DNA of 37,406 nt from an uncultured Opitutia bacterium (GTDB lineage Bacteria; Verrucomicrobiota; Verrucomicrobiia; Opitutales; Opitutaceae), in contig CAITWF010000020.1 in the NCBI GenBank assembly GCA_903896015.1, forward strand, positions 1 to 37,406, written 5' to 3'. The translations under genes were made by a program, and so were the position numbers. Below, in pieces: positions 1,036 to 35,990 of this stretch (the first letter of the stretch is position 1; each line of letters starts with the position of its first letter). The notes beneath the pieces are model-generated. The model saw nothing but the letters and a program-made list of their open reading frames with translations. It was not told the origin of the DNA and searched no databases.

Positions 1036-1040
1036 GCGTT
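1036..1040. repeat. Target-site duplication, left copy (GCGTT)
   Basis: GCGTT directly abuts the left phage end and recurs at 35991-35995 directly after the right end. Mu-type transposition duplicates 5 bp of target. The final T at 1040 could belong to the phage (giving a TG end) or to the duplication, so the duplication is 4 or 5 bp. Confidence 0.65.
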
Positions 1041-1063
1041 GATGCGAGGAGTTAGGTTTGGGA
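1040..1063 (+). repeat. Prophage left terminal repeat (attL end, site L1)
   Basis: This is the outermost left-end sequence of the phage, beginning TGATGCGAGG and containing TTAGGTTTGGGA. It pairs as an inverted repeat with 35967-35990 (19/24 identical). In Mu-like phages such terminal sites are bound by the transposase. A related site sharing the core GTTTGGTAA lies inward at about 1148-1160 in the same orientation. Confidence 0.75.
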
Positions 1064-1227
1064 ACCCCTGAAAAAGGCTGAATCCCGCCGAAATACCCTG
1101 ATCTACGAGGGAAAATCAGCCGCCCTGGATGAATCCGCGACGGCCGGGCAGTTTGGTAAGAAAATCACGGTCAGATCGCCGATTGGAGACCGTTTTTGCA
1201 ATTTTCTAGGGCAGTCTAAGGGCCGGT
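1064..1227. other. Prophage left end, non-coding, probable transposase-binding sites
   Basis: No gene is seen between the left terminus and the stop of the last early gene. A second GTTTGGTAA site lies at about 1148-1160 and matches the right-end site at 35943-35958. Around 1214-1231 there is a near-palindrome, TCTAA then TTTAGA, overlapping the stop codon of the last early gene. It could be a terminator or another protein-binding site. Confidence 0.5.
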
Positions 1228-1875
1228 TTAGAGCCCATTAAAGAGCGGTAAATTCCTATCCTGACTCTTCTCTTCCCGCCGCCGCCTCGCCGCCGCCTCG
1301 CGCAAGCTCTCAGCCTTTGCCGCACCCACCTCATCCGCGCGTTGTGCGAGCAATTCGGTGAGGCTCGGCAAATCGGAAGCGCGCTTCCGATTTGACCCAA
1401 GCCCAAGAGCGCCCACGACGGCCGCGAAGGACTGCGCGCCCACGTCCGCGCCCGTAGTCCGCGCGTGCGCTTGGATTTCCTCTGCATGAGCGCCGACATA
1501 CTTGCTTACCGAGGCCCGGAAATACGGCCAGAAATCCCGCACTGCGCCTGCCCGTTGGGCCTTGCCGATAGGCTCCAGCATCGCCCGCACATGCACCGCC
1601 AACGCCTTGCCGTCGAGTAGCCAGCCGCGGCCCCGAAGTTGGCGAGATAGCCGCGTGATTTCGTTGGCGCACTGATGGAGGAGCCGCGCCTTCGCCGCCC
1701 CATCGGGCGGCCAGACCAGGGAGCGCTCAAGAACAGTCCGCAGCCAAGAGTCCCAGGCTTGGACTCGCTCCACGCGGTCGACGCCGGCCGTCTCGCGCAG
1801 ATAGCATTCCTCGGCCTCTTGCTCCGCATGGTCGCGAGCCTCGCGCTCCTCGAGCCTTGCACCCAAGACGTTCAC
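1228..1875 (-). CDS. Hypothetical early protein, last gene of the leftward operon
   Basis: The 215-residue product is not recognised. The GTG start at 1875 overlaps the stop of the upstream gene (GTGA), which indicates translational coupling. The protein is highly charged. Its N-terminal third is rich in Glu and Arg (likely helical or coiled coil), the middle has a Trp-rich segment (VRDFWPYFRASVSKYVG), and the C-terminus is strongly basic (AARRRREEK) before a short hydrophobic tail NLPLFNGL. Its place beside the left phage end, after a GemA-like gene, would suit a regulator or DNA-binding accessory factor, but that is position only. Its stop lies about 190 bp from the phage terminus. Confidence 0.7.
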   Translation of the reverse strand: MNVLGARLEEREARDHAEQEAEECYLRETAGVDRVERVQAWDSWLRTVLERSLVWPPDGAAKARLLHQCANEITRLSRQLRGRGWLLDGKALAVHVRAMLEPIGKAQRAGAVRDFWPYFRASVSKYVGAHAEEIQAHARTTGADVGAQSFAAVVGALGLGSNRKRASDLPSLTELLAQRADEVGAAKAESLREAAARRRREEKSQDRNLPLFNGL

Positions 1876-2270
1876 AAGAACGCCTCCTGCACCGCACCCG
1901 CTTCCACGGCCGGCGCCTGCCGCCGGTAGCGCCGCGTCCGATAAGCGATCAACCGGTGTGTCATCAGTTTGATTTGCGAGACCGTCGCGTCCTCACACGC
2001 ATCGAGAATCTCGGTCGTCGCCAGCTCCCACAATACGTAGCCGGGAGAGCCTGGCCAGCTGACTATCTGCGGCACGGCCTGCTCGGCGATCACCCGCATC
2101 CTCCGCTTAAATGCCCGCGCATCTTTGACCCCGAGTGCCGCGCCGATTTCCAGCGCCGTCATGATCATTTTCTTTTCAGCCAGCACCTTCACAACGGCCG
2201 CGATCATCTCGTGGTTTACTTTCGGCGCGCGGCCCTTTGGGGCGCGCTTAAAATCGGTGATCGCCTTCAT
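1872..2270 (-). CDS. Putative winged-helix DNA-binding protein
   Basis: The 132-residue product has a basic N-terminus (FKRAPKGRAPKVNHEMI) and then a region that looks like a helix-turn-helix: VVKVLAEKKMIMTALEIGAALG followed by VKDARAFKRRMRVIAEQ. The segment SWPGSPGYVLWE would be the wing. The start at 2270 sits two bases after the stop of the GemA-like gene. In Mu the gene after gemA is mor, the activator of middle transcription. This protein does not resemble Mor or C in sequence, but its place makes it a candidate for the late-gene activator. The family assignment is inference. Confidence 0.7.
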   Translation of the reverse strand: MKAITDFKRAPKGRAPKVNHEMIAAVVKVLAEKKMIMTALEIGAALGVKDARAFKRRMRVIAEQAVPQIVSWPGSPGYVLWELATTEILDACEDATVSQIKLMTHRLIAYRTRRYRRQAPAVEAGAVQEAFL

Positions 2271-2272
2271 TT

Positions 2273-2722
2273 TTAGAAGGGGTTCACCGGCACGCCGAGC
2301 TGCTCGGCGCGGCGCTCCAGCAGGCCGGCCAGTTGCTGCAACTCGCACTCGCTCAGTCCCGCATACGTGCGGCCGCCAAACCAGTGGCGAAAATAGCGCT
2401 CCACGCCGCCGCCCTCTCCGATAATTTTGCAGGCCTTCGCGATCTCCTCGATGCGTGCCCGCACGGCGGAAATCCGTTTCTCGGGCGACTCCTGCAGCTC
2501 AAACTGCGCATCGAAATTACCCGGCTCCGCCTCAGACAGAAACGCCGCGAGCATCGCGTCGAGCTCGGCATTGCGCATCTTCTTCGACGAGCACGCGCGC
2601 CCGATCGTCCTCTGCTTGAGTAACTCGAGCGCCGCCTCGTCGCACGGCCGGCCAGCGGCCCGCCGCGCCGCTTCCCACTTGCGCCGGTTGACATGGTATT
2701 TTACGAGCTGCGCGGAGTTCAT
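2273..2722 (-). CDS. GemA-like regulatory protein (Mu gp16 family, DUF1018-like)
   Basis: The 149-residue product has the layout of GemA-type proteins: a short basic N-terminus, then a helical segment (RRKWEAARRAAGRPCDEAAL), then a conserved-looking turn in which SSKKMRNAELDAMLAAFL stands where GemA proteins have a Ser-Lys/Asp-Ala-Glu-Leu stretch. The C-terminal half continues with RARIEEIAKACKIIGEGGG and a Cys-containing segment YAGLSECELQQLAGLLERR. GemA modulates host functions during Mu development. The position near the end of the early operon agrees with Mu gene order. Similarity is read by eye, so the name is provisional. Confidence 0.5.
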   Translation of the reverse strand: MNSAQLVKYHVNRRKWEAARRAAGRPCDEAALELLKQRTIGRACSSKKMRNAELDAMLAAFLSEAEPGNFDAQFELQESPEKRISAVRARIEEIAKACKIIGEGGGVERYFRHWFGGRTYAGLSECELQQLAGLLERRAEQLGVPVNPF

Positions 2723-3230: not shown

Positions 3231-3563
3231 TCAGTGTTGGGCCGGTTTCAATTCCGATTGAAAATCCTCGCGGGCTGAAAGCGCGTCGGTGGCTCGCTTT
3301 CCTTCGTCATTCAGCACTTCGGGCTTCCGTGAATAATTCACGCTCCCGCTCCAAGCGTAAGCATCCGGCGAGGCGTAAAATTTCAGCGCATCGGCCAAGC
3401 CGTTGCGTTCTTTTTCTATTGCCGCAGCTCCCTCAAGCATGGCCCCGGCATCGCTTCGGACTTGGGAAACCTCACGCTCTAATTGCCGTGCCCAATCAAG
3501 GCAGGATTCAATCGTCAGCGGCGCGTAGTTTTGCGCGAATCGGTCTGTGCGTGGAGTGTTCAT
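3231..3563 (-). CDS. Hypothetical early protein with N-terminal coiled coil
   Basis: The 110-residue product starts [17 protein letters not shown] helix follows (ESCLDWARQLEREVSQVRSD) and then a further helical part ending near residue 65. The opening pattern (PRTD, Cys, ARQLERE) is common in small phage proteins of unknown role. The ATG at 3563 overlaps the stop of the HNH-like gene (ATGA), so translation is coupled. No catalytic motif is visible. Confidence 0.65.
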   Translation of the reverse strand: MNTPRTDRFAQNYAPLTIESCLDWARQLEREVSQVRSDAGAMLEGAAAIEKERNGLADALKFYASPDAYAWSGSVNYSRKPEVLNDEGKRATDALSAREDFQSELKPAQH

Positions 3564-4216
3564 TCGTTCAGGGTGTAGCCAGCGCGCGCTGCCTTTTGCC
3601 GCGCCTTCACGATCGCCATGATTTCGCGCTTCGGTGCAGCCCGCAGGTTGGCGAGCGCGCAGTTCCGACGACTGCCATCTTCAAACAAAATATTCCAACC
3701 TGCCGGCAGCGGCCCGTGCGCGCGCTCCCAGATTACGCGGTGCAGATGCGCGCGCGGCTTTTTCGTGCTCCGCAGATAACCGTCGCGATCGGGGGTGTAT
3801 TCGCGGCCCTCGTGCATGAACTTTGCGTGCAGGTGAAGATGCCGTGGCCGTAGCGCAAAGCCCCGCAGCTTAAACACGCTATAAAGCGACTGACGCGTGC
3901 CGCCATAAATGGCTGCGACCTCCGATAGGCTTTTGCCGGTCCGGTAGTCGGCATACATCGCCTGCGCGATGTGATCGGGCATTCCATAATAACCCCACGC
4001 GCCGATTCGTCCGAGCTTATCGCGTCGCGCAGCGCGCGTTGATTTAGCCAGGGACCGCCGCACCTGTTCCGGCGAAAGTGGTGCAGCAGCCGCCGCCATT
4101 TTTCGCACCTGGTCAGGCGTAAGCTTCAATCGCGAGAGCGCACCTGGCTCGGCTGTGCGACCTTCCATGCGCTCCAAAAAGCGCACCGCGCTGCTGGCGA
4201 GATCGGCGGCGATCAT
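3560..4216 (-). CDS. HNH-like protein with helix-turn-helix, nuclease motif degenerate
   Basis: The start at ATG 4216 is chosen because it overlaps the upstream stop (ATGA); an in-frame ATG at 4255 would extend far into the upstream gene. The 218-residue product has a helix-turn-helix-like region at about residues 86-118 ([20 protein letters not shown]). At about 141-191 it has an HNH_3-like domain: [18 protein letters not shown] then [13 protein letters not shown]. In active HNH homing nucleases this spacing carries a second His (HHxDGN) where this protein has ILFEDG. The first His and the Asn/NL frame remain. It is therefore either a dead homing nuclease or a DNA-binding derivative kept for another use. 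Confidence 0.65.
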
Positions 4217-4512
4217 GGCGAATGTTTCGCCGGCGAAAACGGACGACGCTCCCATTGCTTGCAGGCCGGCGCCTGCGGATGGATATCAGTCTCATCGCTG
4301 TGGGTCCAAGCATGCGCCATCAGATCGCATTTTTTCGAGCGTTGCCCACGATGCACCACGACCGAGCAGTGCTTGCAGTTTCCGCAGCGCTTTCCCTTCG
4401 GGCCGCTTCCAGGCTTGTCGGCATACCCGACCTTACGCCGCCGCCGCTCCTTGCGGAGGGCGGCAGCCGCGGCGATGGGTTCGCCGAACAGATCGCGGCA
4501 GATTACGCTCAT
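4213..4512 (-). CDS. Small Cys-rich (probably zinc-binding) phage protein
   Basis: The 99-residue product has an N-terminal basic helix ([18 protein letters not shown]) followed by a cysteine/histidine cluster: [11 protein letters not shown], then [12 protein letters not shown], then APACKQWE. The three N-terminal Cys plus later Cys/His residues look like a metal site. Proteins with this CxxCxHC plus KC...CxxW pattern are common beside replication genes in phages, with no assigned role. The ATG at 4512 overlaps the stop of the DUF6745 gene. Confidence 0.7.
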
Positions 4513-5498
4513 GTCTGGATCGCGGGCTCGTAGTCGGTCTCAGCCTTGCCGAATGTCCATGCGACCGCCTGCTTCGCGGTCTTCATGTCGGGCGGCACGC
4601 GCAGGAAATAATCCTTAAACGTGCCGTCGGGCTCAGACGTCGAATTGACAACCTTAACCATGACGATCGGCTCATCACCCGGCAGCTCCTTGCGCAGCAG
4701 CACGCCGAAATCGTCGCGAGCGATTTCCTTCGCGCCACTCTCGATCAGGAAGCGGTTCTGGCCGAAGCACTCGACCATTACGCGACGAACCTCGGTGTTC
4801 GTCTCCTTTTCGATTTCCGCGACCGTGATTTTTTCCGGCTGCATCACGACATGCTCTGGCACGCGCACGCCGCGCCAGTGGTATTCGTCGAAGTCGAGCC
4901 ACGACCAGGACGGGCCATCGACGCAGTGCAGGCGACGGCGATCGTCGACGCGCACGCGCGAGGGAATGTCAGCGATCACGATTTCCTCGGCGAGAAACCA
5001 GAGCTGCCACGCTCCGGCCTCGAATGCCTCAAGCAGTGGGGACCACGCATGGAAAGTTTTCCCGTCGGCGCGCGCCAGCGCGCCGACCGCGGTTATGGAA
5101 ACCCATGGGAGTTCCCAGGCCGCAGCCCACGCAGCCCTCGCATCCCAGGCCGCAGCCCACGCAGCCCACGCAGCCCTCGCAGCCCACGCAGCCCTCGCAG
5201 CCCTCGCATCCCAGGCCGCAGCCCTCGCATCCCAGGCCGCAGCCCACGCAGCCCACGCAGCCCTCGCAGCCCACGCAGCCCTCGCAGCCCTCGCATCCCA
5301 CGCATCCCGGCCATATTTGATCATTTCTTTTTCAGAAGAAACGAATCGGATATTCACCGGGTGCTTGATCACGCGCTCCGCAAATTCGAGCACAGCCGCG
5401 CCGGCGCGCGAGCGGTCAACCTTTTGCTTGAGTTCACACGCGGTCGCGTGACGTTGCTGGAATTCCGCCAGCGTCGGCAGTTGGCTAGTCGGCGACAT
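4509..5498 (-). CDS. DUF6745-type protein with Ala/Trp-rich repeat insert
   Basis: The 329-residue product has three parts. Residues 1-65 are a normal helical N-terminus. Residues about 66-129 are almost only Ala, Trp, Arg and Asp in units such as [16 protein letters not shown]. Residues 130-329 follow the DUF6745 pattern: [61 protein letters not shown] and a final [21 protein letters not shown]6745 has no known biochemical activity. The start at 5498 overlaps the upstream gene by 14 bp. The repeat part would form a long amphipathic helix, and its DNA is a recent tandem duplication (see the repeat entry). Confidence 0.75.
5117..5312. repeat. Tandem repeat inside DUF6745 gene (9-bp units, 87-bp higher-order period)
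   Basis: The plus strand is built from units like CGCAGCCCA and CGCAGCCCT, with interspersed CGCATCCCAGGC. An 84-bp stretch at 5130-5213 recurs without mismatch at 5217-5300, an offset of 87 bp (29 codons), so the higher-order repeat keeps the reading frame. Because the unit is a multiple of 3, several other frames through the repeat also stay open. Confidence 0.9.
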
Positions 5499-5949
5499 TG
5501 CGAATTTCCTCCGGGCTGTATTCGCGCTGGCGAATGTTGCGGTATAAACCGGCGGGCACGGCCTGCGCCGTATGCTCGTCGTGTTTGAGCAACGCGAACT
5601 CGCCCTCGATCTCGGCGTACTCACCGCGCACCGTGATGTCGTCGGCGGCGAACTGCATCACGCCGAGCTTCGGGTGTTGCACGAGCACCTGGCCGCGCCA
5701 GGCGCGGAGGATTTTGAGGCGGCTTTTGATCTGGCGGCCGGCAACACGGACGAACTGGTCGCCATTTTCGGCCTGCAACAGATCGGTGCCGGGCTCGGAG
5801 ATCGCGTGAGCGTGGCCGGTGACTTCGCCATGGGCGAGAATCACGCGACCCTGCTCGCGGGCAATGGTGACTAACTTGGCGGGCAAAGAGCCGACGCGCT
5901 CGATCAGCACGTCGCCCTGACGGTAGTGTATGTTATTTTTGGTTTTCAT
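5485..5949 (-). CDS. Hypothetical protein with GEVTGHAH motif
   Basis: The 154-residue product begins [20 protein letters not shown] and contains [16 protein letters not shown] at about residues 37-52. This QGDVL...GEVTGHAH arrangement is widespread in small uncharacterised proteins of actinobacteria, proteobacteria and phages; it looks like a compact beta-rich fold. The two His in GHAH are the obvious candidates for metal or ligand binding. The ATG at 5949 overlaps the upstream stop (ATGA). No function is known. Confidence 0.7.
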
Positions 5950-8706: not shown

Positions 8707-10797
8707 TTATTGCGGGAGAGAGTTTAGGGCGGCGTTGGCGAGCAGCTTCGCGCGGTCGCGCTGTTTCGAAATCGGCGCGGACTTTTCTTCGCTGGCTGGA
8801 GTGGCGCTCGTCGACTCGGCGATGCGCGGTGTCGACAGCACTCGGTCGTTGTGCGAGCGCAGGAGCGCTAGGCCGGTGTCGCGATCAGCGAGGTAACCAG
8901 CGAGTTGGTTGCGGTCTGCCACACGCGCGGCGCGCACGCGGCCGGCCTCGCGCTTGAGCGCCTCGGCGTCGTTGGCGGCGATCCGGTCCTGCCGCTGCAC
9001 GCGGCCGACGAGCCGGCCCTCGTCGCCCAGGACGAGCGCGCTCGCATCGGGCGCGAGCGCTGCCTGGAACTCGCGGCCCTCGTGCTCGGGCTCGAGCAGG
9101 GCATGGCCGCTCTCGCGGAAAGTGATCGGCTCGGCCGCCAGCTCCTTGCGATTGAGCGTGATCTTGCCGTTGCGCACGCGCACCGCGAAACGCGGTCCCT
9201 GAATCCAATCGAGCAGATCGGGATCGACCGGCTCCAGCGTCACGCCCGAAAGTTTCTTAACGAAGCGCTCGGCGGGCGATTCGAGGCGCGTGATGATCTC
9301 CGGCCGCGCGTCGGGATTCGCGAGGTGAAATTCGCCGAGCTTCGCCTCGGGCTGCCATGGCGAGCCCGCATCCGCCCGCCACTCCACGACGCGATCGAAG
9401 CCCTGCAGCTTGTGCCGCGTGCGGAAGCGCAGCAGGTGCAGCGCGCGGTTGATCGCATCGTGCGCGGCGTCGAAGCGCAGCAGCGGCGAGCGCAGCTCGG
9501 TGAGCACGCTCTCAATTCCCTGGGCACCGTCGATGAGCGCGAGCGCGTAATCTTCCATCTGCGCGAGCTCGCCGTGTTTTTCGTCGTAGCGTGGCCCCGT
9601 CGAGCCAGGCAGCGCGGCGAGACGCGTTTGTAGCGGCCGGAAAAATGCCTCCAGCGGCGCCTTGCCCCACGGGCAGCCGCCGCTTTCGGTAAAGCCGTTC
9701 GCCGTCATCCGTTCGCGGAAAATCGCGGTCTCCTCGAACTGCACGCGCTCGCCAAAGGCATCCTTGAACAGATCGCGATCCTCGCGGGTGAGCGCGGCCG
9801 CGGCGTTTTCGCAGACAAACGTAATCGGATAATCCTTCGGAAGCCCCCAGCGGCGAATCGTTTCAAGCGCGACGAGCAGCGTCATGTTGCGCGTGATGCC
9901 GTGGCGTTCGCCCGAGTCATCATTCTTCAAGGCGCGAGGCTTCGCGCAATTCGCGAGATCCACGCCGCTCGCGGCATCAAGGCCCAGCACGATCAGCGGA
10001 TAGACAATCTCGCCGGTCGCGCCAGCGAGGTGCAGACAACGGAAGTCAGGCCGCAAGTCGTCGAGAAACACGCGCTCGAGTGGAAGCAGCGGAGCCCGAT
10101 CCTTGAGCACCTGATCGGCGAGATGCGAATGCGCGGCGAGGTAGCCGTGCGCGAGCTGCTCCTTGTCGGCGATTCGCGCTGGAAGATTGCCGCGCAGATT
10201 GTCCAGGCTCCAGCCCTCGGGTAAATCGCCGGGGCGCACGAGCACGCGGTTCGGCAACGCGCGACTGCGCGCCGCATACCAGTCGGCCGCTATGCCGTAG
10301 CCAGGCACCGGCAGGCCAGCGAGCCAGATTTCCTTCACGAGCTTCTCGTGCGCGGCCGTGATCGCATCGCCGCGCCCGCGAAACTCCGCATAAACACCGC
10401 CCCAAAACAGGAGAAACTCCTGTGGCAACCCGCCCTTCGCGTTGCGGTAGGCGCGGCAGAGCGCGCGGAAATCGCGCGGCGGAAACTTCGCGCCGGTCTT
10501 CTTCCAGTCGCCGGGCTTGTGGCCGCCGTTGACCCAGAGCCGGAAGAGATCCTTGAGCGTCTTCGCCGAGAATCCCCACGAGAGATGCGCGCGCTTTTGC
10601 GCGGCGTAGCTCGCGCCCTCATCGATCGTCTTGGCGCGCGAAATCTCCCAAAAGATTTGCCCGAGCTCGCGCAGGCGCGCGCGCTCCCGCGCTTCCACGC
10701 CGCGCATGAAGTCGTCGTGATCGTGCGGCTGCGGCACGCGGAATTCGACCGGGATCAGTCCGCCGACGAATGATGCTGAGGTATCGGTGATGCTCAT
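8707..10797 (-). CDS. MuA-like DDE transposase
   Basis: The 696-residue product (start ATG 10797, overlapping the upstream stop) has MuA layout: an N-terminal DNA-binding region to about 220, an RNase H-like core, then a beta-barrel-like part and a helical C-terminus. The first catalytic Asp is in ERVFLDDLRPDF (D247 likely). The third acid is in WGKAPLEAFFRPLQ (E383), matching the MuA pattern around E392. The second acid position, expected as Asp, reads ITFVCENAAAAL with E330. Spacing (83 and 53 residues) is close to MuA. It would cut and join phage ends for integration and replicative transposition. Length compares with 663 in Mu. The 71 bp before the MuB-like gene hold nothing obvious. Confidence 0.85.
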   Translation of the reverse strand: MSITDTSASFVGGLIPVEFRVPQPHDHDDFMRGVEARERARLRELGQIFWEISRAKTIDEGASYAAQKRAHLSWGFSAKTLKDLFRLWVNGGHKPGDWKKTGAKFPPRDFRALCRAYRNAKGGLPQEFLLFWGGVYAEFRGRGDAITAAHEKLVKEIWLAGLPVPGYGIAADWYAARSRALPNRVLVRPGDLPEGWSLDNLRGNLPARIADKEQLAHGYLAAHSHLADQVLKDRAPLLPLERVFLDDLRPDFRCLHLAGATGEIVYPLIVLGLDAASGVDLANCAKPRALKNDDSGERHGITRNMTLLVALETIRRWGLPKDYPITFVCENAAAALTREDRDLFKDAFGERVQFEETAIFRERMTANGFTESGGCPWGKAPLEAFFRPLQTRLAALPGSTGPRYDEKHGELAQMEDYALALIDGAQGIESVLTELRSPLLRFDAAHDAINRALHLLRFRTRHKLQGFDRVVEWRADAGSPWQPEAKLGEFHLANPDARPEIITRLESPAERFVKKLSGVTLEPVDPDLLDWIQGPRFAVRVRNGKITLNRKELAAEPITFRESGHALLEPEHEGREFQAALAPDASALVLGDEGRLVGRVQRQDRIAANDAEALKREAGRVRAARVADRNQLAGYLADRDTGLALLRSHNDRVLSTPRIAESTSATPASEEKSAPISKQRDRAKLLANAALNSLPQ

Positions 10798-11594
10798 CCT
10801 TTGATCTCCTTGGCCTTGGCCTTCGCATGTTTCATTTGCGCTTCGAGCTCGCTGGCGGCGCGCTCCCAAAAATCGCGGTCCGTTTTTTCCACGAACACCG
10901 GATCGGCAAACAGCGTCTTGATCTGGGTGAGCGGCAGTTCGAGGTCGCGCCAGAGATCGAGTTCGCCCTGGCTGCCGCCACTGTCGGCGCTCACCGTGGA
11001 GCGCGGCCGAGGCTCGGTTGCGTCCTTGGCCTCGGCGGTGTCGCTCGCGCTCTCGGCGCGGCGGAAATCCTGGAGCATTCGGCGCAGCGAGCGGCCACCC
11101 ACGAAGGCTTCGATCCGTTCGGTGATGGCGCGGGCGCGCGTGCTGGGCAGCGCGAGTGCGAGCACCTCGTCTGCCTCGACGGCGGGCGCGGTGAGCGCGG
11201 CGTCGCGGCCATCGCCGGCGAAGGCGCCCTGCTCGAGATCCGCTATGAAGTGCTGCGCCAGAAACGCATAGTCGCGCAGTGAACGTGCGAAGTTGTCGCG
11301 CTCGGCGGGTGTCAAATCGGCAGCACGCTGCCGATTCGGATGGAGCGCGGTCCACACCTCGGCGCAGAACGGCTGCCACTCGCCATGCTTGAGCGTGAGT
11401 CGCTTCGCTAGGATGAAGATGCCTGTGCGCACGGCTGAGCCCTGAAACGTCGCGCGCTGCTCCTCGGTCGCGCGCACGACCTCGGCAATCTGGGCACCGG
11501 TGAGCTTCTCGCCTGCGCTCCTGAGCCGCGTCAGGGCTTTTTTTCCGGGCTCGCCGGCGATAACTAAAGTGGAATCTGAATCAGTCTTAGGCAT
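10794..11594 (-). CDS. DUF3102-like early protein upstream of transposase
   Basis: The 266-residue product has a central pattern SAVRTGIFILAKRLTLKHGEWQ split around residues 53-75, like DUF3102-type proteins (helix, AK.L.HGEW). The N-terminal part holds a helix (KLTGAQIAEVVRATEEQ). The middle is Ala-rich and acidic, and the C-terminus is charged (SELEAQMKHAKAKAKEIKG). Its stop overlaps the transposase start (ATGA). DUF3102 proteins occur beside ParB-like and phage replication genes without known activity. It might bind DNA or the transposase, but this is inference from position. Confidence 0.6.
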   Translation of the reverse strand: MPKTDSDSTLVIAGEPGKKALTRLRSAGEKLTGAQIAEVVRATEEQRATFQGSAVRTGIFILAKRLTLKHGEWQPFCAEVWTALHPNRQRAADLTPAERDNFARSLRDYAFLAQHFIADLEQGAFAGDGRDAALTAPAVEADEVLALALPSTRARAITERIEAFVGGRSLRRMLQDFRRAESASDTAEAKDATEPRPRSTVSADSGGSQGELDLWRDLELPLTQIKTLFADPVFVEKTDRDFWERAASELEAQMKHAKAKAKEIKG

Positions 11595-12880: not shown

Positions 12881-13055
12881 TGGCGATCTTCTCCAGCACC
12901 CGCTGCGACGCCGGCCCCTTGCGTGAGCCGCGCACCGCGGCCTTCACGGTCGCATAGGGCACACGGTGCTTCTTGGCAAACGAGGTGAGTGTGTGGCCCG
13001 CGACGAGCAGTTTGGCGCGGAGGACGCGGGCTTTGGGACTTGACGGGAGTCGCAT
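12873..13055 (-). CDS. Ner/Cro-like small HTH regulator, first early gene
   Basis: The 60-residue product has a basic N-terminus (MRLPSSPKARVLRAKLLVAG) and an HTH-like core (TLTSFAKKHRVPYATVKAAV) followed by RGSRKGPASQRVLEKIANV. The size, the single HTH and the first place in the early operon match Ner of Mu and Cro of lambda-like phages. Those proteins repress early and repressor promoters to favour lytic growth. It is divergent from the repressor gene across a region of about 60 bp. The name is by analogy in layout and size. Confidence 0.65.
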   Translation of the reverse strand: MRLPSSPKARVLRAKLLVAGHTLTSFAKKHRVPYATVKAAVRGSRKGPASQRVLEKIANV

Positions 13056-13128
13056 TTCGTTGGAGGGTGTAGCCTCTAGGACACAAATAAAATCGGAGTC
13101 CGCAAGAAAAAAATTGAGTGGTGCTCAA
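13056..13128. promoter_or_regulatory. Divergent early/repressor control region with palindrome
   Basis: The only gap between the leftward early operon and the rightward repressor gene is this AT-richer stretch. It contains the palindrome TTGAG-TGGTG-CTCAA at 13114-13128 in an A-rich context, a likely operator for the repressor or the Ner-like protein. The leftward strand has a T-rich run and TTATTTGTG before the early genes, but no convincing sigma-70 boxes can be named. The palindrome overlaps the preferred repressor start codon, which would allow autoregulation. Confidence 0.5.
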
Positions 13129-23536: not shown

Positions 23537-23557
23537 GCGACCAGGAGTTTTCTTCGA

Positions 23558-23586: not shown

Positions 23587-23599
23587 AGAAACCTTCAAA

Positions 23600-23650
23600 A
23601 TGATCTCTAAACCTACCACGCGAAAGCCGCCCGTCATCGTCACAAAATAA
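23600..23650 (+). CDS. Possible 16-residue leader ORF before connector gene
   Basis: ATG 23600 opens a short frame MISKPTTRKPPVIVTK ending at TAA 23650, one base before the ATG of the connector gene (TAAAATG). The peptide is basic and Pro-rich. It could be a leader for coupled translation or a chance frame. Evidence is only the tight spacing. Confidence 0.25.
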   Translation: MISKPTTRKPPVIVTK

Positions 23651-23651
23651 A

Positions 23652-24764
23652 ATGAACGCCGGCCTGGGCACACTCACTGATCTCAAGACGCAGCTCCTCA
23701 ACGAGGCGCTGCGCAGCGCGACCACGTATGATGCCGCGCTGCTTGCCCTGGGCAAAGGCGTCGCGACGCGCTTCGATCAATACTGCAACCGGAAAGTCGC
23801 CCGGCTCGTCGGCGCGCAATACGTCACCAACGCCGATCGCACGAAGGTGATTCTCGATCGCTATCCCGTCGAAGTGATTTCGCAGATCGAGATTCGCGAT
23901 TCGCTCGACCAGGGCTGGGTCGATCAGGGCGCGGTCAACAACGTGCTCTTCAATCTCCGCGAGGAAGTAGGCCTCTGCGAATTCGCGGGCTACCTGGGTG
24001 GCAGCTACTCGCGCATCCGTATCACCTACACCGGCGGCTTCTGGTTCGCGACTGATGACGCCGTAACGATCAAGAGCGGCGCACTCGCGCTCACCGCCGG
24101 CGCCACGATCGCGCGCGTGGCCTTCGATGCCGCGTTCACCATTGCGCCGCAGGTCTTCGCCGCGCTGCTCGCGCCCGACGGTGGCACGATCGTTTCCATC
24201 CTTCCGGCCACGCCCACGGCCGCGGGCTTCGATGTGCGCTTTGCCGCGCCGTTGCCAGCGAGCGGCTACACGCTCTCGTGGATCGCTTTCATGGGCGTCA
24301 GTGACGTCCTGCAGCAGGCCTCCGCCTCCGTCGCGACGAATGCCGAATCGCTCACGATCACGTATCCCACGGCCTTCGCGGCTGCGCCAGCCGTGCTCTG
24401 CAATCTCGTCGCGCCCGACGGCGGGACGATCATCTCCGCGCAGCCAAGCGCGGTGACAACGACGGGCTTCAAGGCCGAGTTCGCCGCGCCCGTGCCGGCC
24501 GGCTATACGCTTTCCTGGTGCGCTTATGCGCAGGGCGCGATCAGCTCGCTCACGCTGCCGAGCGGCGCGACCGCGCTGCCCGACGATCTGAAGTTCGCCT
24601 GGCTGACACAGTGCGAGGCCGCCTGGCAGCTGCGCGACAAGCTCGGCCTCTCGCTCGCCGAAGGCGCGGAGAGCCGTCGCACGCTCACGCTCGGCCAGCT
24701 CCAGCTCGTGCCCGAGGTCGAGGCCATCCTCAAGAACCACATCCGCTACGCCATCGCCTCGTGA
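23652..24764 (+). CDS. Head-tail connector with two inserted beta-sandwich repeats
   Basis: The 370-residue product has an adaptor framework. The N-terminal part (1-130) has helices and IRITYTGGFWFATDDAV; the C-terminal part (300-370) has LPDDLKFAWLTQCEAAWQLR and LQLVPEVEAILKNHIRY, as in HK97 gp6-like connectors. Between them are two tandem copies of a domain of about 65 residues: FTIAPQVFAALLAPDGGTIV with SGYTLSWIAF at about 157-213, and FAAAPAVLCNLVAPDGGTII with AGYTLSWCAY at about 235-292. Such FxxAPxV...PDGGTI...GYTLSW repeats resemble lectin-like domains of tail fibres. The insertion would decorate the head-tail joint. Confidence 0.7.
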   Translation: MNAGLGTLTDLKTQLLNEALRSATTYDAALLALGKGVATRFDQYCNRKVARLVGAQYVTNADRTKVILDRYPVEVISQIEIRDSLDQGWVDQGAVNNVLFNLREEVGLCEFAGYLGGSYSRIRITYTGGFWFATDDAVTIKSGALALTAGATIARVAFDAAFTIAPQVFAALLAPDGGTIVSILPATPTAAGFDVRFAAPLPASGYTLSWIAFMGVSDVLQQASASVATNAESLTITYPTAFAAAPAVLCNLVAPDGGTIISAQPSAVTTTGFKAEFAAPVPAGYTLSWCAYAQGAISSLTLPSGATALPDDLKFAWLTQCEAAWQLRDKLGLSLAEGAESRRTLTLGQLQLVPEVEAILKNHIRYAIAS

Positions 24765-25336
24765 ACCTCACGCTCTCCAGCAACGCCGCCGCCATCCGCG
24801 CGCAACTCACGGCCTTCCCGCCGGAGATGCTTGCGCGCATCGCCAAGGCGATCGACCTGCAGAACGAGCTTTCGATCGGCGTGATTCAAAAGACGCGGCT
24901 CTCACGCCGCGGGCCCGACACGCTCGGCGTCCGCACCAATCGGCTCCGTTCCTCCATTTCCCGCGCGCCAGCGACGGTGCTGCCCAATGGCTCCGGCGTC
25001 GTCTCCGCGATCGGCAGCAACGTGAAATATGCCGGCGCCCACGAATATGGTTTTGCCGGCACGGTCGAGGTCCGCGCGCACACGCGCCGCCGCGTCATCA
25101 CGCACACCACGAGCGTCGCCGCCACCTTCAATCCACTCTCCGGAAAAATCGACAAGGCGAAGAAGACGAAGCGCCGTGTCGATACTGGCGAGACGATCCA
25201 GGTGCGCGCGCACGGGATGAAGATGCGGATCCCGCAGCGCGCCTATATCCGCACCGTGCTTGCGCAACGGGCTGGCGAGTATTCGACGGCCGTCAGCGAG
25301 GCGATCGTCGCCGCTTGGAAGGGAGGCCGCGCATGA
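24761..25336 (+). CDS. HK97 gp10-like tail completion protein
   Basis: The 191-residue product starts at GTG 24761, overlapping the connector stop. It has the gp10-like pattern: an N-terminal helix (EMLARIAKAIDLQNELSIGV), then SRRGPDTLGVRTNRLRSSIS, VKYAGAHEYGFAGTVEVRAH and a C-terminal RIPQRAYIRTVLAQRAGEYS. The segment YAGAHEYG and RAYI near the end are the usual landmarks. A central basic, Lys-rich insert (KIDKAKKTKRRVDTG) lengthens it. It would sit between connector and tail terminator at the neck. Confidence 0.7.
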   Translation: MNLTLSSNAAAIRAQLTAFPPEMLARIAKAIDLQNELSIGVIQKTRLSRRGPDTLGVRTNRLRSSISRAPATVLPNGSGVVSAIGSNVKYAGAHEYGFAGTVEVRAHTRRRVITHTTSVAATFNPLSGKIDKAKKTKRRVDTGETIQVRAHGMKMRIPQRAYIRTVLAQRAGEYSTAVSEAIVAAWKGGRA

Positions 25337-26102: not shown

Positions 26103-27026
26103 ATGAGCGCTCCACAAATTATCGCCGGCCCGGCCGTCATTCAGTTCAACGGCAATTCCTACTACACGGAAAACGACATCGCCCTCAACGACAACCCCGA
26201 GACGTTCAAGGTCGTGAGCTCGATTGCGGGCACGATCGACGAGCGGCTCATCGCCAATGCGATTGAGATCAACTTCAAGCCCGTCGGCGCGCTTGATGTC
26301 GTCGCAAAATATCTGCCCTACGCCGTCACGCAGATCGGCTCGCTCCTGATCAACCAGGCCTCGCCGAAGGCCGTCACGATCTGGGGCGCTGATGGCATCA
26401 AGACCGTCTGGGCGAATGGCTTCATTTCGAAGCTGCCCGCCTTCACGCTCGCCGCGACGAAGACCGCGATCGAGCCGATGGCGATCATGTGTTTCGGCGA
26501 CCCAACGAAGACGCTCGTCGACGCGGCCGCGTGGAACACGATCACCTCGGCCGCGCTCGCCGACACCACCTTTGACGAGACGAAGATCGTGACGCCGCAA
26601 TACCTCGCCACCTGGGGTGCGATCACCGGATTCGTTGCCGTCGAGAGCGAGGATGGCTTCACCTTCGAAGTCGCGATGGGCCTCGCGATGAAGAAGGTCG
26701 CGAACTGGGGGAATGTGAACGCCATGCTCACCGACCTCACGGTCAGCGCGCGTTTCAAGCCCGTGGGCCCCACGGAGGCTAACCTCTGGGCCGCGCGCAA
26801 TCTCCAAGGCTCGGGCGCGGTGAAGCCCGGCATGTCACTCAGCACGAGCAATGATCTCGTGATCAGCGCCTCGCCCTACACCTTCACGATGCCGAAGGCC
26901 GGCATCATGCGCAATACAACGCAATACGGCCTCACGCCGCTGCGCCACGGCGAGCTCGCCTTCGTTAATCGCAAGACGTGGACCGGCGGTTCGATTAACG
27001 CGCTCTTCACGGTGGCGTTCAGCTGA
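26103..27026 (+). CDS. Probable major tail tube protein
   Basis: The 307-residue product starts MSAPQIIAGPAVIQFNGNSY and is mostly beta-structured (AIEINFKPVGALDVVAKYLP, ESEDGFTFEVAMGLAMKKVA, LTVSARFKPVGPTEANLWAA). It has no membrane segment or signal. It occupies the tube position between the terminator-like protein and the fibre genes. Tube proteins stack in hexameric rings around the tape measure. No sheath gene precedes it. The assignment is from position and fold pattern. Confidence 0.6.
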   Translation: MSAPQIIAGPAVIQFNGNSYYTENDIALNDNPETFKVVSSIAGTIDERLIANAIEINFKPVGALDVVAKYLPYAVTQIGSLLINQASPKAVTIWGADGIKTVWANGFISKLPAFTLAATKTAIEPMAIMCFGDPTKTLVDAAAWNTITSAALADTTFDETKIVTPQYLATWGAITGFVAVESEDGFTFEVAMGLAMKKVANWGNVNAMLTDLTVSARFKPVGPTEANLWAARNLQGSGAVKPGMSLSTSNDLVISASPYTFTMPKAGIMRNTTQYGLTPLRHGELAFVNRKTWTGGSINALFTVAFS

Positions 27027-30074: not shown

Positions 30075-30077
30075 TCC

Positions 30078-30415: not shown

Positions 30416-30898
30416 ATGGGCTTCTTCAGCTCACTCTTCGGCACCTCCGCGCCCAAGGTCTACACTGGGCGCTTGCTCACGGCAGACCAGGTGCGTGCCG
30501 CGCTCGGCTGCCCTGCGCTCACGCTCGGCAAGACGCAATATGCCGAGATGACCGAGGAGGCCGCGATCTACCTCGCACAGCAGGCGCGCAATGCGCTCTT
30601 CCCGCTCATCGGCCACTGGCAACCGGATGCGAGCTGCACGCTCTACGGCGGAAAATTCAAGGTGCTCGCGAATGAGAAATTCGCCGAGCAGTCATTTCAG
30701 GATGCGATCTCCACGCAGCTCTGCGCCGCCGCCGCGGGCGATGTGTGGTTCACGCCGGACGGCTCCGCGACCGGCCACGCGATCGGCTTCGTCATCACGC
30801 CGAGCGGCGCGAAGTATGTCGACCCCCAAGCGCCCGATGCGCTGCGCCCGATGAGCGCTACCGAACTGGCGAGCCGGTATTTTCAAAATCTTCTGTGA
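30416..30898 (+). CDS. Hypothetical protein, papain-like fold suspected
   Basis: The 160-residue product starts MGFFSSLFGTSAPKVYTGRL. Its C-terminal half has GDVWFTPDGSATGHAIGFVI (H121) and TPSGAKYVDPQAPDAL (D137), like phage papain-like or MOA-related proteins in which His and Asp support a Cys. The usual Cys-bearing CDDFA motif is absent; the matching place reads KFAEQSFQDA. If the fold is right it is likely inactive, perhaps a binding protein at the tail tip. The start is three bases after the upstream stop. Confidence 0.5.
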   Translation: MGFFSSLFGTSAPKVYTGRLLTADQVRAALGCPALTLGKTQYAEMTEEAAIYLAQQARNALFPLIGHWQPDASCTLYGGKFKVLANEKFAEQSFQDAISTQLCAAAAGDVWFTPDGSATGHAIGFVITPSGAKYVDPQAPDALRPMSATELASRYFQNLL

Positions 30899-32403
30899 TG
30901 GACAGCCTGAAAATCCCGATCGCGTCGACCTTCGACGGCCAGGGCGCCGCGGCCGCTACCAAGGCCGTCGAGAACCTTGAGCTCGCGACCAAAAAAGCCG
31001 CGGCGACCACGCAGGAGCACGGCGAAAAATCGCAGCACGCCGGCGGCCTGATCGAGGAGCTTGGCTCCCGCTCGGGTCACACGCGTCACCTCGTCGAAGG
31101 CCTTGAGCAGGCCACGCGCGGCGGCACGAGCGGCATCCTTGGCCTCGCCCGCGCTGCCTTCGTCGCTGGCGAAGCCCTTAATCCTGCGACCCTCGCCCTC
31201 GGCGCCCTCATCGCCCTCGCCCCCGAAATCGTCGAGCACCTGGGCGGCTCCGAAAAGGAAATCGGAGAGGGTGGCAAAGAGGCGGCAAAAGGCCTGGAGG
31301 AGATGACGAAAGCCGGCGAATCCGCCGGAAAGGTAAAACTCGACGGGCTCATCGATCAGCTCAAGGAGGCCGACACGGCCGCGAAAAATCTCGCCGAAAA
31401 ACTCGACGCCACGCTCGACGCCGAAGCCCGCGTCGACAAGGCGCATGAGAAGCTCGAGCTGCTCCGCAACGACCGGAGCCCGATGCTCTCCGACGAGCAG
31501 AAGGCCCGCAACGAAGTCGCCATTCGCCAAAAATACGCCGATCGGGCGACCGCGCGCGAACGGGAAAAAATATCGGGTCAATATGGTCTCGCCGACGCCG
31601 AGGCCTCGGGCGCGACCTCGGCCGCCGAGCAGGCCGAGCACGATCGCGATGTGCAACGCTCCGTCGTAACCCGCGCTAAACGGCGCCAGCACGAGCAGGA
31701 GGAACTTTCGAAAGAGCTTCGCGCCCAGGAATCCGCGCTTATTCAGGGCGATGGCGACATCGGTCGCACTTTCGATCTCCGCGAGATGCTGGGTAAAATG
31801 GGGTCCGCCGAAACGCTCGCCCGTATCACCGCCGAGGCGGAGGGCCGACTCAAGCAGATGGAAGAGAGCGCTGAAAAACTCTCCCGAGAAGCCAAGGACA
31901 AACGCGCCAAGGCTAATCAGACGGCCACAATCGCCGGCATCCGATATAAAGGTCTTAACGACTCTGCTGATCTCGAGGCGCAGGGCAACGCCGCCGAGGG
32001 CCGCCCGAAGATCGAAGTCGGCGCCGACAAGGACAGCCGCACCCTCGGCCGCGTCATCGGCGATCGCGTGTCGTCGTTTTTCTATCCCTCCCGCGCACCC
32101 TTCGACGATCGCTTCTATCACGATTCGCTCCTCCGTGATCGCGATCGCGCGCACTACGATCAAGGTAGCGCCAGCTACGCGGCGCGCGGCAACGATTTTG
32201 CGCGCGCCAAGTCGAGCGCGATGGAGCTCTCCCAGCAGCTCGCCGGAGGCAAGGGCACGACTGATGACATGAAGCAGCTCGCCGATCTCCTCGCACAAAT
32301 CGGCACCTATCTAGGAAAAAACTCCGGCGACGTCTCGGCTCTACGCGCCGAAATCCGCACGCTCCGCGCCCAGCTCACCAACAGCGAGCGATCCAAGGGC
32401 TGA
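30898..32403 (+). CDS. Short tape measure-like protein
   Basis: Start ATG 30898 overlaps the upstream stop (TGATG). The 501-residue product has an N-terminal helical part (KAVENLELATKKAAATTQEH), a hydrophobic segment (GEALNPATLALGALIALAPE) and a long charged coiled coil (DKAHEKLELLRNDRSPMLSD and AEGRLKQMEESAEKLSREAK). The C-terminus has YPSRAPFDDRFYHDSLLRDR and a helix (VSALRAEIRTLRAQLTNSER). Tape measure proteins set tail length at about 0.15 nm per residue, which would give a tail near 75 nm. It is the only gene of this kind in the window. Confidence 0.6.
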   Translation: MDSLKIPIASTFDGQGAAAATKAVENLELATKKAAATTQEHGEKSQHAGGLIEELGSRSGHTRHLVEGLEQATRGGTSGILGLARAAFVAGEALNPATLALGALIALAPEIVEHLGGSEKEIGEGGKEAAKGLEEMTKAGESAGKVKLDGLIDQLKEADTAAKNLAEKLDATLDAEARVDKAHEKLELLRNDRSPMLSDEQKARNEVAIRQKYADRATAREREKISGQYGLADAEASGATSAAEQAEHDRDVQRSVVTRAKRRQHEQEELSKELRAQESALIQGDGDIGRTFDLREMLGKMGSAETLARITAEAEGRLKQMEESAEKLSREAKDKRAKANQTATIAGIRYKGLNDSADLEAQGNAAEGRPKIEVGADKDSRTLGRVIGDRVSSFFYPSRAPFDDRFYHDSLLRDRDRAHYDQGSASYAARGNDFARAKSSAMELSQQLAGGKGTTDDMKQLADLLAQIGTYLGKNSGDVSALRAEIRTLRAQLTNSERSKG

Positions 32404-32406
32404 GTC

Positions 32407-34224
32407 ATGTCCGTCATTACCTGGACCATCACCGGCGGCGCCTACACCGACGCGACGTTCGCGAGTCTTCGCTTGAGCGGCCTGCGCCGCGAGCTCGTGA
32501 GCCAGGCGGCCGATCGCGTGACGTTTGTGCAGGACGGCGCGGCCTTCGACAGCGCGCCGCTGTTTGCCTTCGGTTCGACGGTGACGATAAAGCGCGTAGT
32601 CGATGGCACACCGACGAAATGGTTTGTCGGCCGCGTAACGCGCACGCCTCGCATCGGCATGCCGCGCGGCGAATCCGTCGGTTATGAACTGTCTAGCCCT
32701 TGGTGGTATCTCGAAAATCTCGTTTTTCGGCAAAACTGGAAAGTCCCAGTCGACCCCACAAATCCCGCAACGGCCTTGAGCAACCAGCTCAGCGCGATGC
32801 TGATTCTCAACCTCAAGGAGGATGGCACTACGCTTACCTCGCTGCAGCAGATCACTGAGGTGATGAACTACGCGATCGCGTGTGGCGCTCCCATTGCGCT
32901 AGGCTCCGGATTTCCCGCGCTGAATTTGACTTGGGAGGAAATCAAGGCGCTGAGTTGCGCCGAAGTGATTCGTCGGCAAATGCGCTGGGCCCCGGATGCC
33001 TGTTTGTGGTGGGATTTCACGGCGAGCACGCCGACACTCAATTGCGCGCGCCGCAGCAGCGCATCGACAGTAAGCTATGCTGTCGACGGCACGCAGCCGG
33101 CTGTCAGCGAAGTAAAACTGACTGCGCTACCCGAACTGCAGGTGCCTGCCGTGGCGATCGATTATTGGGCGACTAACCAGCAAGATCAGACGAGCTGGAA
33201 TAGCATGTATCAGGATCTTTATCCGGGCGGCGCTAGTCTCGCTCAGTTTAACGTGCCGATCATGGCGGTTCAGCTCGGCGGCGCGGTAAGCACGCTGCAG
33301 CGGCAGCAGCTCAAGACCCGCGCAATCGACGCGACTAACGCCGCGTGGTGGAAGAAGCACTTGGTCTGGCTTAATGATTCCACGATCAGCAGTATTACGA
33401 TTACGAGCGGAGCGGTCGTGAAAGACGCCGACGGCTCCTCGATCGGAGCGTTTACGAATGAGATCATCGAGGGCGCGCTTCCGATCTGGAAAGTGAGCAC
33501 CGGCGCCAAGCTTCGCGCGACCGCGCTGATTAGCTATTCGATCGACAATGGCGCTGGCGCCAAGGCGGTGGTCGTTAAAAAAGCCGTCCATGCAATTATT
33601 CAGGGCACGTCGTTGAGCTCGCCGTCGGAAACGAGCCCAGCGACATTTTCGCAGATCGTGACACTCGTCGCCGCCGAGAGCGCGCCCAGCGGCCTGGCGC
33701 AGAGCCTCTATACCGGGCTCTCCGTGCTGCAATATGAAGGCTCCCTGCGCTTGACAGAGCAGGAGTGCTCATCGGCGGTGACTCCGGGTATGCTGCTCAA
33801 TCTCACCGGCGGTTTGTCAGACTGGACGACGATGAACGCGCAGATTCAGCGAGTGGAAGAAGACGTTGACCAGGGCACGACGATTTTGACAGTGGGGCCC
33901 GCTCAGCATCTCGGCCCGCAGGATTTGGTTGAGCTGCTCCGGCCGAATCGCACGCGCACGCCCACGGTGCTGAGTTCCACTCGCACGACCGGCGTCGCGC
34001 GAAGCAACGCTACCTCTGATGGCGCGCCCGCCAATGCCAACGATCACGCCAGCGGCGCCGCAGGACCTTATTCGAAGCTGATCTTCGCCGACGGCACCGG
34101 CCGGACGATTACGATCGATGCCAGCGCGCTGGGATCCGGCGAAGCAATGACCATTCAAACGCTGAGCGTTTGCGTGAGCGGGGTGACGAAATCCATGAAG
34201 GTAATCGGCACGACGCCATCCTGA
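32407..34224 (+). CDS. Tail hub/baseplate-type protein
   Basis: The 605-residue product has hub-like beta domains: VITWTITGGAYTDATFASLR, DRVTFVQDGAAFDSAPLFAF, then STVTIKRVVDG and WFVGRVTRTPRIGMPRGESV. Further on come VSEVKLTALPELQVPAVAID and MNAQIQRVEEDVDQGTTILT with VGPAQHLGPQDLVELLR. The order of a small beta-barrel domain with WFVGRV and a late TILTVGPAxHLG strand fits hub proteins of short-tailed siphoviruses (Mu gp44/T4 gp27-like in role). It follows the tape measure as expected. Confidence 0.6.
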   Translation: MSVITWTITGGAYTDATFASLRLSGLRRELVSQAADRVTFVQDGAAFDSAPLFAFGSTVTIKRVVDGTPTKWFVGRVTRTPRIGMPRGESVGYELSSPWWYLENLVFRQNWKVPVDPTNPATALSNQLSAMLILNLKEDGTTLTSLQQITEVMNYAIACGAPIALGSGFPALNLTWEEIKALSCAEVIRRQMRWAPDACLWWDFTASTPTLNCARRSSASTVSYAVDGTQPAVSEVKLTALPELQVPAVAIDYWATNQQDQTSWNSMYQDLYPGGASLAQFNVPIMAVQLGGAVSTLQRQQLKTRAIDATNAAWWKKHLVWLNDSTISSITITSGAVVKDADGSSIGAFTNEIIEGALPIWKVSTGAKLRATALISYSIDNGAGAKAVVVKKAVHAIIQGTSLSSPSETSPATFSQIVTLVAAESAPSGLAQSLYTGLSVLQYEGSLRLTEQECSSAVTPGMLLNLTGGLSDWTTMNAQIQRVEEDVDQGTTILTVGPAQHLGPQDLVELLRPNRTRTPTVLSSTRTTGVARSNATSDGAPANANDHASGAAGPYSKLIFADGTGRTITIDASALGSGEAMTIQTLSVCVSGVTKSMKVIGTTPS

Positions 34225-35364: not shown

Positions 35365-35366
35365 GC

Positions 35367-35867
35367 ATGGCCGAAGCGAAGAAAATGCCTGCCTTCATGG
35401 TGCAGATTCGCTCGGCGATCTGCGACCGCTGCGATGAGCGCTGCTCGGCCTTTCTGGCCGGTCAAATCGACCATGCTGACCCGGCGGCGGAATGCCCCCG
35501 TCAATGGCCCAGCCGCTGGCATCGCTATGGTCGCGCCGACGCCTCAATTCAGCGCGCCGACGCAACGCCGGCAGCCGCACCGATCGGCACCCAGGCAGCC
35601 CCGCGCAATAGCCGGCAGGTTAGCGTGCCAATCGCAGCCAAAGCCCACCACTTGGGCAGGGCTCTGATGCGCTGGGCAAAGGGTGGATTCGGTTTTGTCG
35701 ACTGGCGCACACGCCGACTTCGCCGGCAGGCCTGTGAGGCCTGCGAGGCATGGCGCCCAAAGGGTAATCTCGGCTTTGGTGAATGCACCGATCTGCGGTG
35801 CGGCTGCACAAAGCTTAAGCGCTGGCTACCGGGAGAGACTTGTCCGCGTGGAAAATGGCCTTCTTAG
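35367..35867 (+). CDS. Zinc-ribbon-like protein, last late gene
   Basis: Start ATG 35367 is two bases after the upstream stop. The 166-residue product has a Cys cluster at the N-terminus (RSAICDRCDERCSAFLAG) and a second at the C-terminus (RRQACEACEAWRPKGNLGFG, ECTDLRCGCTKLKRWLPGET, CPRGKWPS). The pattern CxxC with a later CxC and C is like small phage zinc-ribbon proteins at the end of tail operons. Residues 50-105 are low-complexity Ala/Pro/Arg. It is the last phage gene before the right end. Confidence 0.65.
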   Translation: MAEAKKMPAFMVQIRSAICDRCDERCSAFLAGQIDHADPAAECPRQWPSRWHRYGRADASIQRADATPAAAPIGTQAAPRNSRQVSVPIAAKAHHLGRALMRWAKGGFGFVDWRTRRLRRQACEACEAWRPKGNLGFGECTDLRCGCTKLKRWLPGETCPRGKWPS

Positions 35868-35871
35868 ACCC

Positions 35872-35891
35872 GGTTTAGCGCGTTCTAAGCC
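35872..35891 (+). terminator. Possible terminator-like inverted repeat at end of late operon
   Basis: GGTTTAG-CGCGTT-CTAAGCC begins five bases after the last late stop. It is a 7-bp stem with one G-T pair and a six-base loop, and no T-run follows. A second inverted repeat CGGATCG (35897-35903) and CGATCCG (35931-35937) lies downstream. They may terminate late transcription or bind a protein near the right end. Confidence 0.35.
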
Positions 35892-35966
35892 ATCCTCGGA
35901 TCGGGCTTAAAGGGTTGTTTTCCGACGGTTCGATCCGGCCGGATTTACCAAACCTCTCCCGTTTCA

Positions 35967-35990
35967 TCCCAAACCTACCTCGGCGCTACA
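35967..35990 (-). repeat. Prophage right terminal repeat (attR end, site R1)
   Basis: Read on the minus strand this begins TGTAGCGCCG and contains GTAGGTTTGGGA, so the plus strand ends in CTACA as expected for a Mu-type right end. A second inward site, GAGAGGTTTGGTAAAT on the minus strand, lies at 35943-35958. The right end thus carries at least two sites in the orientation opposite to those at the left end. Confidence 0.75.

Follow-up and report, generated by a model that had tools for sequence, protein, structure and literature searches.

The 37,406-nucleotide stretch of DNA analysed here (the window) is the entire contig CAITWF010000020.1 of a 4.96-Mb, Opitutae-related metagenome-assembled genome (MAG; Verrucomicrobiota). 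Positions 1040-35990 very probably represent the prophage form of an Opitutae transposable phage resembling Mu and B3; it would use a MuA-family transposase with an Asp-Glu-Glu (D-E-E) catalytic triad and insert with a 4-bp stagger. What is new is the enzyme residue and, in relatives of the prophage, the insertion sites; divergent gene arms and HK97-type heads are already known. A wider reading is offered tentatively, its likelihood being put a little short of even: that these elements form a Verrucomicrobiota family of Mu-type phages with Glu in place of the second Asp and a 4-bp stagger, many members of which are steered either into terminator-like palindromes or to within a few dozen bases on the downstream side of tRNA genes, a Tn7-like homing without a recognisable TniQ-type selector.

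The complete prophage is 34,951 bp long, begins with TGATGCGAGGAGTTAGGTTTGG and finishes with CCCAAACC...CGGCGCTACA. Its ends have the form 5'-TG ... TACA-3' with GCGT on both sides, and the interval proposed in the initial annotation coincides exactly with it. A 4-bp duplication fits the window, whereas duplications of 5, 6 or 7 bp do not; a 5-bp duplication likewise finds no fit in the related stretches G043 and G007. End pairs with a 4-bp duplication were accepted in 16 of the 37 stretches examined, window included. A strict search yielded, in a first set, GCGT (the window), CCTT (G043), TTGC (G007), AATC (G046), GGCA (G040), CCAA (G050), and GTTC (G123) and, in a second, GCAG (G521), AAGG (G607a), CTAG (G607b), CCCC (G517), and GGGG (G368); none of these 12 prophages came with a 5-bp pairing, 6 and 7 bp having been tried in the set of the first seven. 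A relaxed search with inspection added GAAT (G136) and GCCG (G049), and a TACA-anchored search added GCGG (G499) and CTAG (G564). Summed over 17 stretches, about 0.3 chance pairings were expected at 4 bp and seven were found; the same stretches gave zero pairings at 5, 6, and 7 bp and one at 3 bp (G136). The end pairs of G237 and G035, further low-scoring pairs, and those of G512, G043x, and G534 were rejected because the full motif was missing at one end. In the remaining stretches without a pair, a contig end was reached, the ends are divergent, or the transposase is a distant one.

An empty site and a genome with two copies support the 4-bp duplications of the family. Genome G607 holds near-identical prophage copies at two sites (98.5-98.7% identity over the two longest aligned segments, lower elsewhere), and the alignment of the copies stops no more than one base from the predicted ends. 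When joined, the flanks of G607a run through in G615 (89% identity, one 1-base gap) with a single AAGG; among the 13 genomes searched, homologous sites with more gaps or indels were present in G614 (78%) and G606 (73%). Applied to G040, the same search turned up no relative with an alignment running through both flanks. Transposase-binding-like sites lie at 0, +85, and +126 from the left end in three relatives (G043, G007, and G015), and two right-end sites are spaced 21-22 bases apart in four (G040, G043, G046, and G007). The ends of Mu are laid out as L1-L3 and R1-R2, which this arrangement resembles. TG-CA ends are thus shared with Mu-type phages, whereas their 5- or 6-bp duplication is not matched by the 4 bp found in all 16 prophages; in print, the Mu duplication has 5 bp and that of B3 has 6 bp (PMC8705779). 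A 4-bp duplication alone is not unique to the family, since bounding repeats of 4 bp are given for the Porphyromonas transposable phages, one Bacteroidota candidate family, in parts of another (PMC10367356).

The 3' end of a tRNA gene faces the phage from 11-35 nt away in nine of the 16 two-ended prophages, one of the nine being a tRNA fragment. The gene is tRNA-Ser beside G043 (11 nt), G046 (23 nt), G007 (17 nt), G040 (16 nt), G521 (17 nt), and G564 (35 nt), tRNA-Pro beside G607a (17 nt), and tRNA-Tyr beside G049 (23 nt); next to G607b, where ARAGORN made no call, a tRNA-Ser-like 3' fragment was seen by eye 14 nt away. Two prophages with one end placed add tRNA-Ser at 38 nt (G546) and tRNA-His at about 14 nt (G128, end inexact). 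The host flanks of 15 prophages (window left out) hold only 10 tRNAs in 175,468 bases, and eight of these are the adjacent ones. This tRNA-side bias holds for the family and not for the window copy: the window, G050, G123, G517, G368, and G136 are not near a tRNA, and the right flank of G499 extends for only 64 nt.

The cause preferred for the bias, at about an even chance, is a preference exerted by the MuB-type protein or by terminator structure: the MuB-like ATPase or a different early protein would bring the family to sites just downstream of tRNA genes, perhaps to terminator stem-loops, and the window copy would have entered a similar palindrome. That copy sits in the palindrome GCGGCGGC-GTT-GCCGCCGC (p 0.008). 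Palindromes mark the sites of the window, G007, G040, G050, and G123 (p 0.002-0.02; Fisher P 7e-5 over 12 sites), and in G607a the duplicated AAGG falls within a terminator-like stem after tRNA-Pro. Against homing stand the seven of 16 prophages, window included, that lack a recognised tRNA beside them, the absence of tRNA from the left flanks of three of the nearest relatives of the window, ordinary palindrome scores at seven of 12 sites (p 0.25-1.0), and a tRNA label that is unclustered on a quick transposase tree (5 changes vs 5.2 when shuffled). The search for a selector gene also came up empty. Among the ORFs (open reading frames) of 14 prophages, no family was shared by the full set of eight tRNA-side members and missing from the others, and no TniQ or TnsD protein was recognised among the scanned proteins of the window and G007. 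A few small ORF families with 4-5 members are limited to tRNA-side prophages (one, for example, to G007, G040, G043, G046, and G521), and in at least one such family the ORF lies across a conserved gene that is read in a different frame.

Mu-type phages are near-random inserters, and the excess might instead arise if insertion is near-random and selection keeps the harmless copies beside tRNA genes, an explanation that is considered unlikely. It agrees with the lack of orientation preference, the tRNA lying on the left in four prophages and on the right in five. Such a lack does not exclude targeting, since orientation is likewise unbiased at a hotspot of phage Ab30; its hotspots lie near hairpins of bacterial interspersed mosaic elements (BIMEs), and tRNA goes unmentioned in the relevant parts of the text (PMC5977238). 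Intergenic space is, however, far roomier than the 40 nt beside each tRNA, and at one tRNA per 50 kb at least eight of 16 would arise by chance with a probability of about 2e-21, by simple arithmetic that ignores selection.

The enzyme that would act at these ends matches no Pfam or PHROG family and has no tblastn match at E ≤ 0.01 among 50,697 phage records (INPHARED); in the 16 rows of a family alignment (A1), Pfam at E ≤ 0.1 recognises just an Arc-like domain, in a single row. By profile and predicted fold the enzyme is MuA-like. Comparison with six described MuA proteins by hhalign gave 98.8% (E 6e-17), and a 48-sequence family profile gave 99.3% against nine. With the AlphaFold model as query, Foldseek placed the Mu transpososome and TnsB first, the Mu transpososome being best (E 1.3e-11), and the Mu core matches the model with Z 18.3 and a root mean square deviation of 4.3 over 260 residues.

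In the profile alignment, D247 pairs with MuA D269, E330 with D336, and E383 with E392. The model has strand 325-329 directly before E330 and places E383 close to where helix 380-393 begins. D246, D247, E330, and E383 are present in all 51 usable rows of a 53-row alignment that includes the window; two fragment rows are uncounted, seven A1 duplicates were dropped beforehand, and a few near-copies remain. At the second catalytic position Asp occurs in nine of nine described phages (Mu, D3112, B3, Aussie, StopSmel, Mwe-Yong1, Lsp-JY19, Hankyphage, and martha). From these alignments it is proposed that Asp-Glu-Glu serves in this family in place of the Asp-Asp-Glu (DDE) of described Mu-type enzymes, with E330 as a presumed metal ligand. 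The family would be an exception, since Asp at this position is described as conserved among the phage transposases compared so far, and no D-E-E transposase was found in print in the open-access literature. There is a small chance that E330 does not bind metal, that another acidic residue serves, and that the family is canonical DDE. The AlphaFold model carries neither metal nor DNA, and D251 and D274 are acidic too in most rows; however, the four residues named are the only fully invariant acidic ones in the 51 rows, the next best, D610 (49 of 51), lies near the C-terminus, and both profile alignments put E330 in the D336 column.

A 246-residue open frame runs opposite the transposase strand in three relatives and matches positions 35-202 of the transposase model (G180:C30:4174-4686, G209:C7:24935-25447, and G344:C21:20498-21007). 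The Mu repressor is related to the N-terminus of the transposase, and by analogy this frame could encode a repressor that arose from the N-terminal part of the enzyme.

Several points weigh against the picture of an Opitutae phage of this type. Four of the 16 accepted prophages (G136, G049, G499, and G564) were sought with 4 bp only, and near the ends of the window just one left and one right site pass a one-mismatch scan. The AlphaFold model is of moderate quality (predicted local distance difference test 75.6, predicted template modelling score 0.55). A Mor/C activator was unmatched among the three conserved left-end families compared. The window makes up a complete MAG contig, so the host assignment leans on binning; in addition, sequences 69-77% identical to its two flanks lie near each other on contig C69 of that MAG.

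The transposase family was detected in 17 of 141 relatives, in 43 of 387 genomes drawn from Verrucomicrobiota, and in 33 of 252 genomes of the family; of the four named transposase relatives, three belong to Opitutae MAGs and the fourth to a Verrucomicrobia MAG. The large terminase (TerL) was detected in eight of 16 transposase-bearing stretches compared with the window proteins, always on the strand opposite the transposase. From IMG/VR, 41 TerL relatives were retrieved, nine with the transposase and 14 with the window-type portal, both counts being limited by incomplete loci, and in two of them (L002 and L037) the transposase, TerL, portal, protease, and capsid genes follow the window order. 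In a further locus, L010, nearly 7 kb separate TerL (10001-11377) from a partial portal match (18067-18810), compared with less than 0.2 kb in the window. Neither the single transposase nor the tail protein encoded at 32407-34224 brought up a relative in pattern scans of IMG/VR; alignment A1 was too diverse to serve such scans. That tail protein weakly matches one Akkermansia phage, an integrase-bearing record without MuA/MuB annotation.

A lineage distinct from the described transposable phages is supported on sequence grounds, since TerL alone matches by blastp and falls outside the clade of five such phages. At E ≤ 1e-3, the 51 window ORFs were compared with 74 selected proteins of B3, Aussie, Mwe-Yong1, and Lsp-JY19, and only TerL matched; it is 58-62% identical to the TerL proteins of B3, Lsp-JY19, Aussie, StopSmel, and Mwe-Yong1. 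In a quick TerL tree supported by the Shimodaira-Hasegawa-like approximate likelihood ratio test (SH-aLRT) only, these five form one clade (SH-aLRT 97), the window lies outside it beside IMG_L002 (SH-aLRT 95), and Hankyphage, the sixth phage included, is far off. The distinct lineage suggested in the initial annotation largely holds, whereas the divergent arms and HK97-type head that it took as unusual are each known, from B3 and from Aussie, StopSmel, and Mwe-Yong1, respectively.

Features of the window are collected in the table below.

Table. Coordinates, strand (., none), and supporting evidence of features in the window; aa, amino acids; HTH, helix-turn-helix.
Feature	Position	Strand	Evidence
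Left copy of 4-bp target duplication, GCGT	1036..1039	.	End analysis
Complete prophage	1040..35990	.	End motif and duplication; like ends in 15 other prophages
Left end, transposase-binding-like site TG-N13-GGTTTGG at 1055, with degenerate copies (by eye)	1040..1260	+	Site scan
Conserved early protein, 215 aa	1228..1875	-	In 12/14 prophages, window included; no Pfam
Conserved early protein, 158 aa	1872..2348	-	Family comparison
GemA-like protein	2273..2722	-	Family profile vs GemA, hhalign 83.5%, E 8e-6
HNH endonuclease	3560..4255	-	phrog_1891, E 1e-13
DUF6745 protein, probable cargo	4509..5624	-	PF20530, E 1e-51
MuB-like AAA+ ATPase, 394 aa	7451..8635	-	PF13401, PF09077, phrog_296; hhalign to described MuB 99.9%
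MuA-like transposase, 696 aa, proposed catalytic D246/D247, E330, E383	8707..10797	-	Profile, fold, alignment
Early protein beside transposase	10794..11594	-	39-44% in nearest relatives G025, G002, L002, L037
HTH (Cro/CI type) repressor	12973..13638	+	PF01381, phrog_4
Probable small terminase (Mu gp27 position)	17007..17636	+	Position; Phage_Mu_Gp27 only E 0.18; 71% in L037
Large terminase (TerL), B3 type	17633..19024	+	62% to B3
Portal fused to MuF-like head morphogenesis domain, 750-aa ORF	19164..21416	+	PF04860, PF04233
Probable prohead protease	21421..22167	+	Weak phrog_617, phrog_80; 28.7% to phiKM1 protease
HK97-type major capsid protein	22175..23536	+	PF05065, E 3e-25
Head-tail adaptor with H-type lectin domain	23652..24764	+	phrog_442, PF09458
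Tail completion/Neck1-like, true start probably later in ORF	24518..25336	+	phrog_26
Possible major tail protein	26103..27026	+	Position and composition only
Tape-measure-like protein, about 500 aa, helix-rich	30898..32403	+	Composition and position
Tail-region protein common to relatives	32407..34224	+	30-32% in G136, G043, G050
Right end, two transposase-binding-like sites (35945 by scan, 35968 by eye), terminal TACA	35945..35990	-	
Right copy of target duplication, GCGT	35991..35994	.	

The gene map bears out most of the initial annotation. Early genes lie on the minus strand, and the repressor and late genes on the plus strand from about 13 kb. The MuA-, MuB-, and GemA-like genes are all present, recognised by profile and fold, by Pfam, PHROG, and hhalign, and by hhalign, respectively; in Pfam, the GemA-like protein has only a weak, unrelated DUF3301 match (E 0.027). 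As in Mu-type phages, the gene for the MuB-like ATPase adjoins that for the transposase. Seven early proteins of G007 gave Pfam matches to Gam, to AAA_22 and TniB (both on the MuB homologue), to DUF3102, and to HTH_17, besides weak sub-threshold matches, and three were blank. A run of 9-base repeats lies at 5112-5321, within the DUF6745 ORF. In the late arm, the HK97-type portal and HK97-fold capsid are confirmed by their Pfam matches, and domain scans of window proteins, which did not cover every small ORF, found no sheath family. A protease is indicated by weak PHROG matches and one phage match (29%), and its assignment to S78 is not sustained, with no S78 Pfam model matching at E ≤ 1. The length of the tape-measure-like protein would suit a short siphovirus tail, the presumed morphology. 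The H-type lectin domain is located inside the head-tail adaptor. Two late genes within 27495-30413 start with stretches that by eye resemble signal peptides, and a chitobiase C-terminal domain is encoded at 25315-26082; these products of the tail operon are possibly exported or particle-surface proteins. Outside the prophage, host flanks 1-1039 and 35991-37406 resemble mobile-element DNA, the left being transposase-like by eye and the right encoding TnpB/IS605 OrfB.

In the proposed mechanism, the MuA-family transposase would bind the putative site arrays at the left and right ends and, assisted by the MuB-like ATPase, would splice the TG/CA ends into host DNA at cuts staggered by 4 bp. The phage, if active as presumed, would replicate by repeated transposition, and its B3-type terminase would pack DNA into the HK97-type head, probably by a headful process that takes in host DNA. 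If this is true, a large natural Glu family makes the two-metal mechanism directly testable by a one-carbon swap, and a branch biased strongly towards the tRNA side would connect Mu with homing Tn7-like elements, prompting the question of whether MuB-type ATPases can select sites. The exact ends are also raw material for building tools for the phages of a phylum where genetic tools are scarce.

Among described phages, B3 (Beetrevirus) shares the leftward early genes, the rightward repressor and late genes, the A and B transposition genes, and TG-CA ends (PMC8705779, in part). It differs in its Mu-type head with separate portal and gp30, in the Asp at the second catalytic position, and in a transposase unmatched by blastp. 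Ordinary membership of a described genus such as Beetrevirus can practically be dismissed: TerL identity (62% to B3) and the same divergent layout favour it, but megablast of window positions 12000-24000 found no match in phage records, TerL is the only blastp match and lies outside the described clade, the head differs, and a 4-bp duplication stands against the 6 bp printed for B3. Aussie and StopSmel (Sinorhizobium) and Mwe-Yong1 (Microcystis) share MuA/MuB, a long portal of about 690-700 aa, a protease, a capsid protein of about 440 aa, and a B3-type TerL about 60% identical to that of the window, a likeness in architecture that rests on annotation. All three differ in the Asp at the second catalytic position, Aussie and StopSmel in having early and late genes in one direction, and Aussie and Mwe-Yong1 in having no blastp match to the window beyond TerL, the transposase included. 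Hankyphage (Bacteroides phage p00) likewise has Asp at this position and another gene order. The Porphyromonas transposable phages, members of the same candidate family as Hankyphage, share the 4-bp repeats, and their insertion is termed non-specific in the relevant passages (PMC10367356). Tn7-like transposons, including CRISPR-associated transposons (CASTs), share the TnsB/TnsC relatives, and some home at tRNA genes according to parts of one account (PMC10293859); they differ from the present family, in which insertion orientation is unfixed and the element is a phage.

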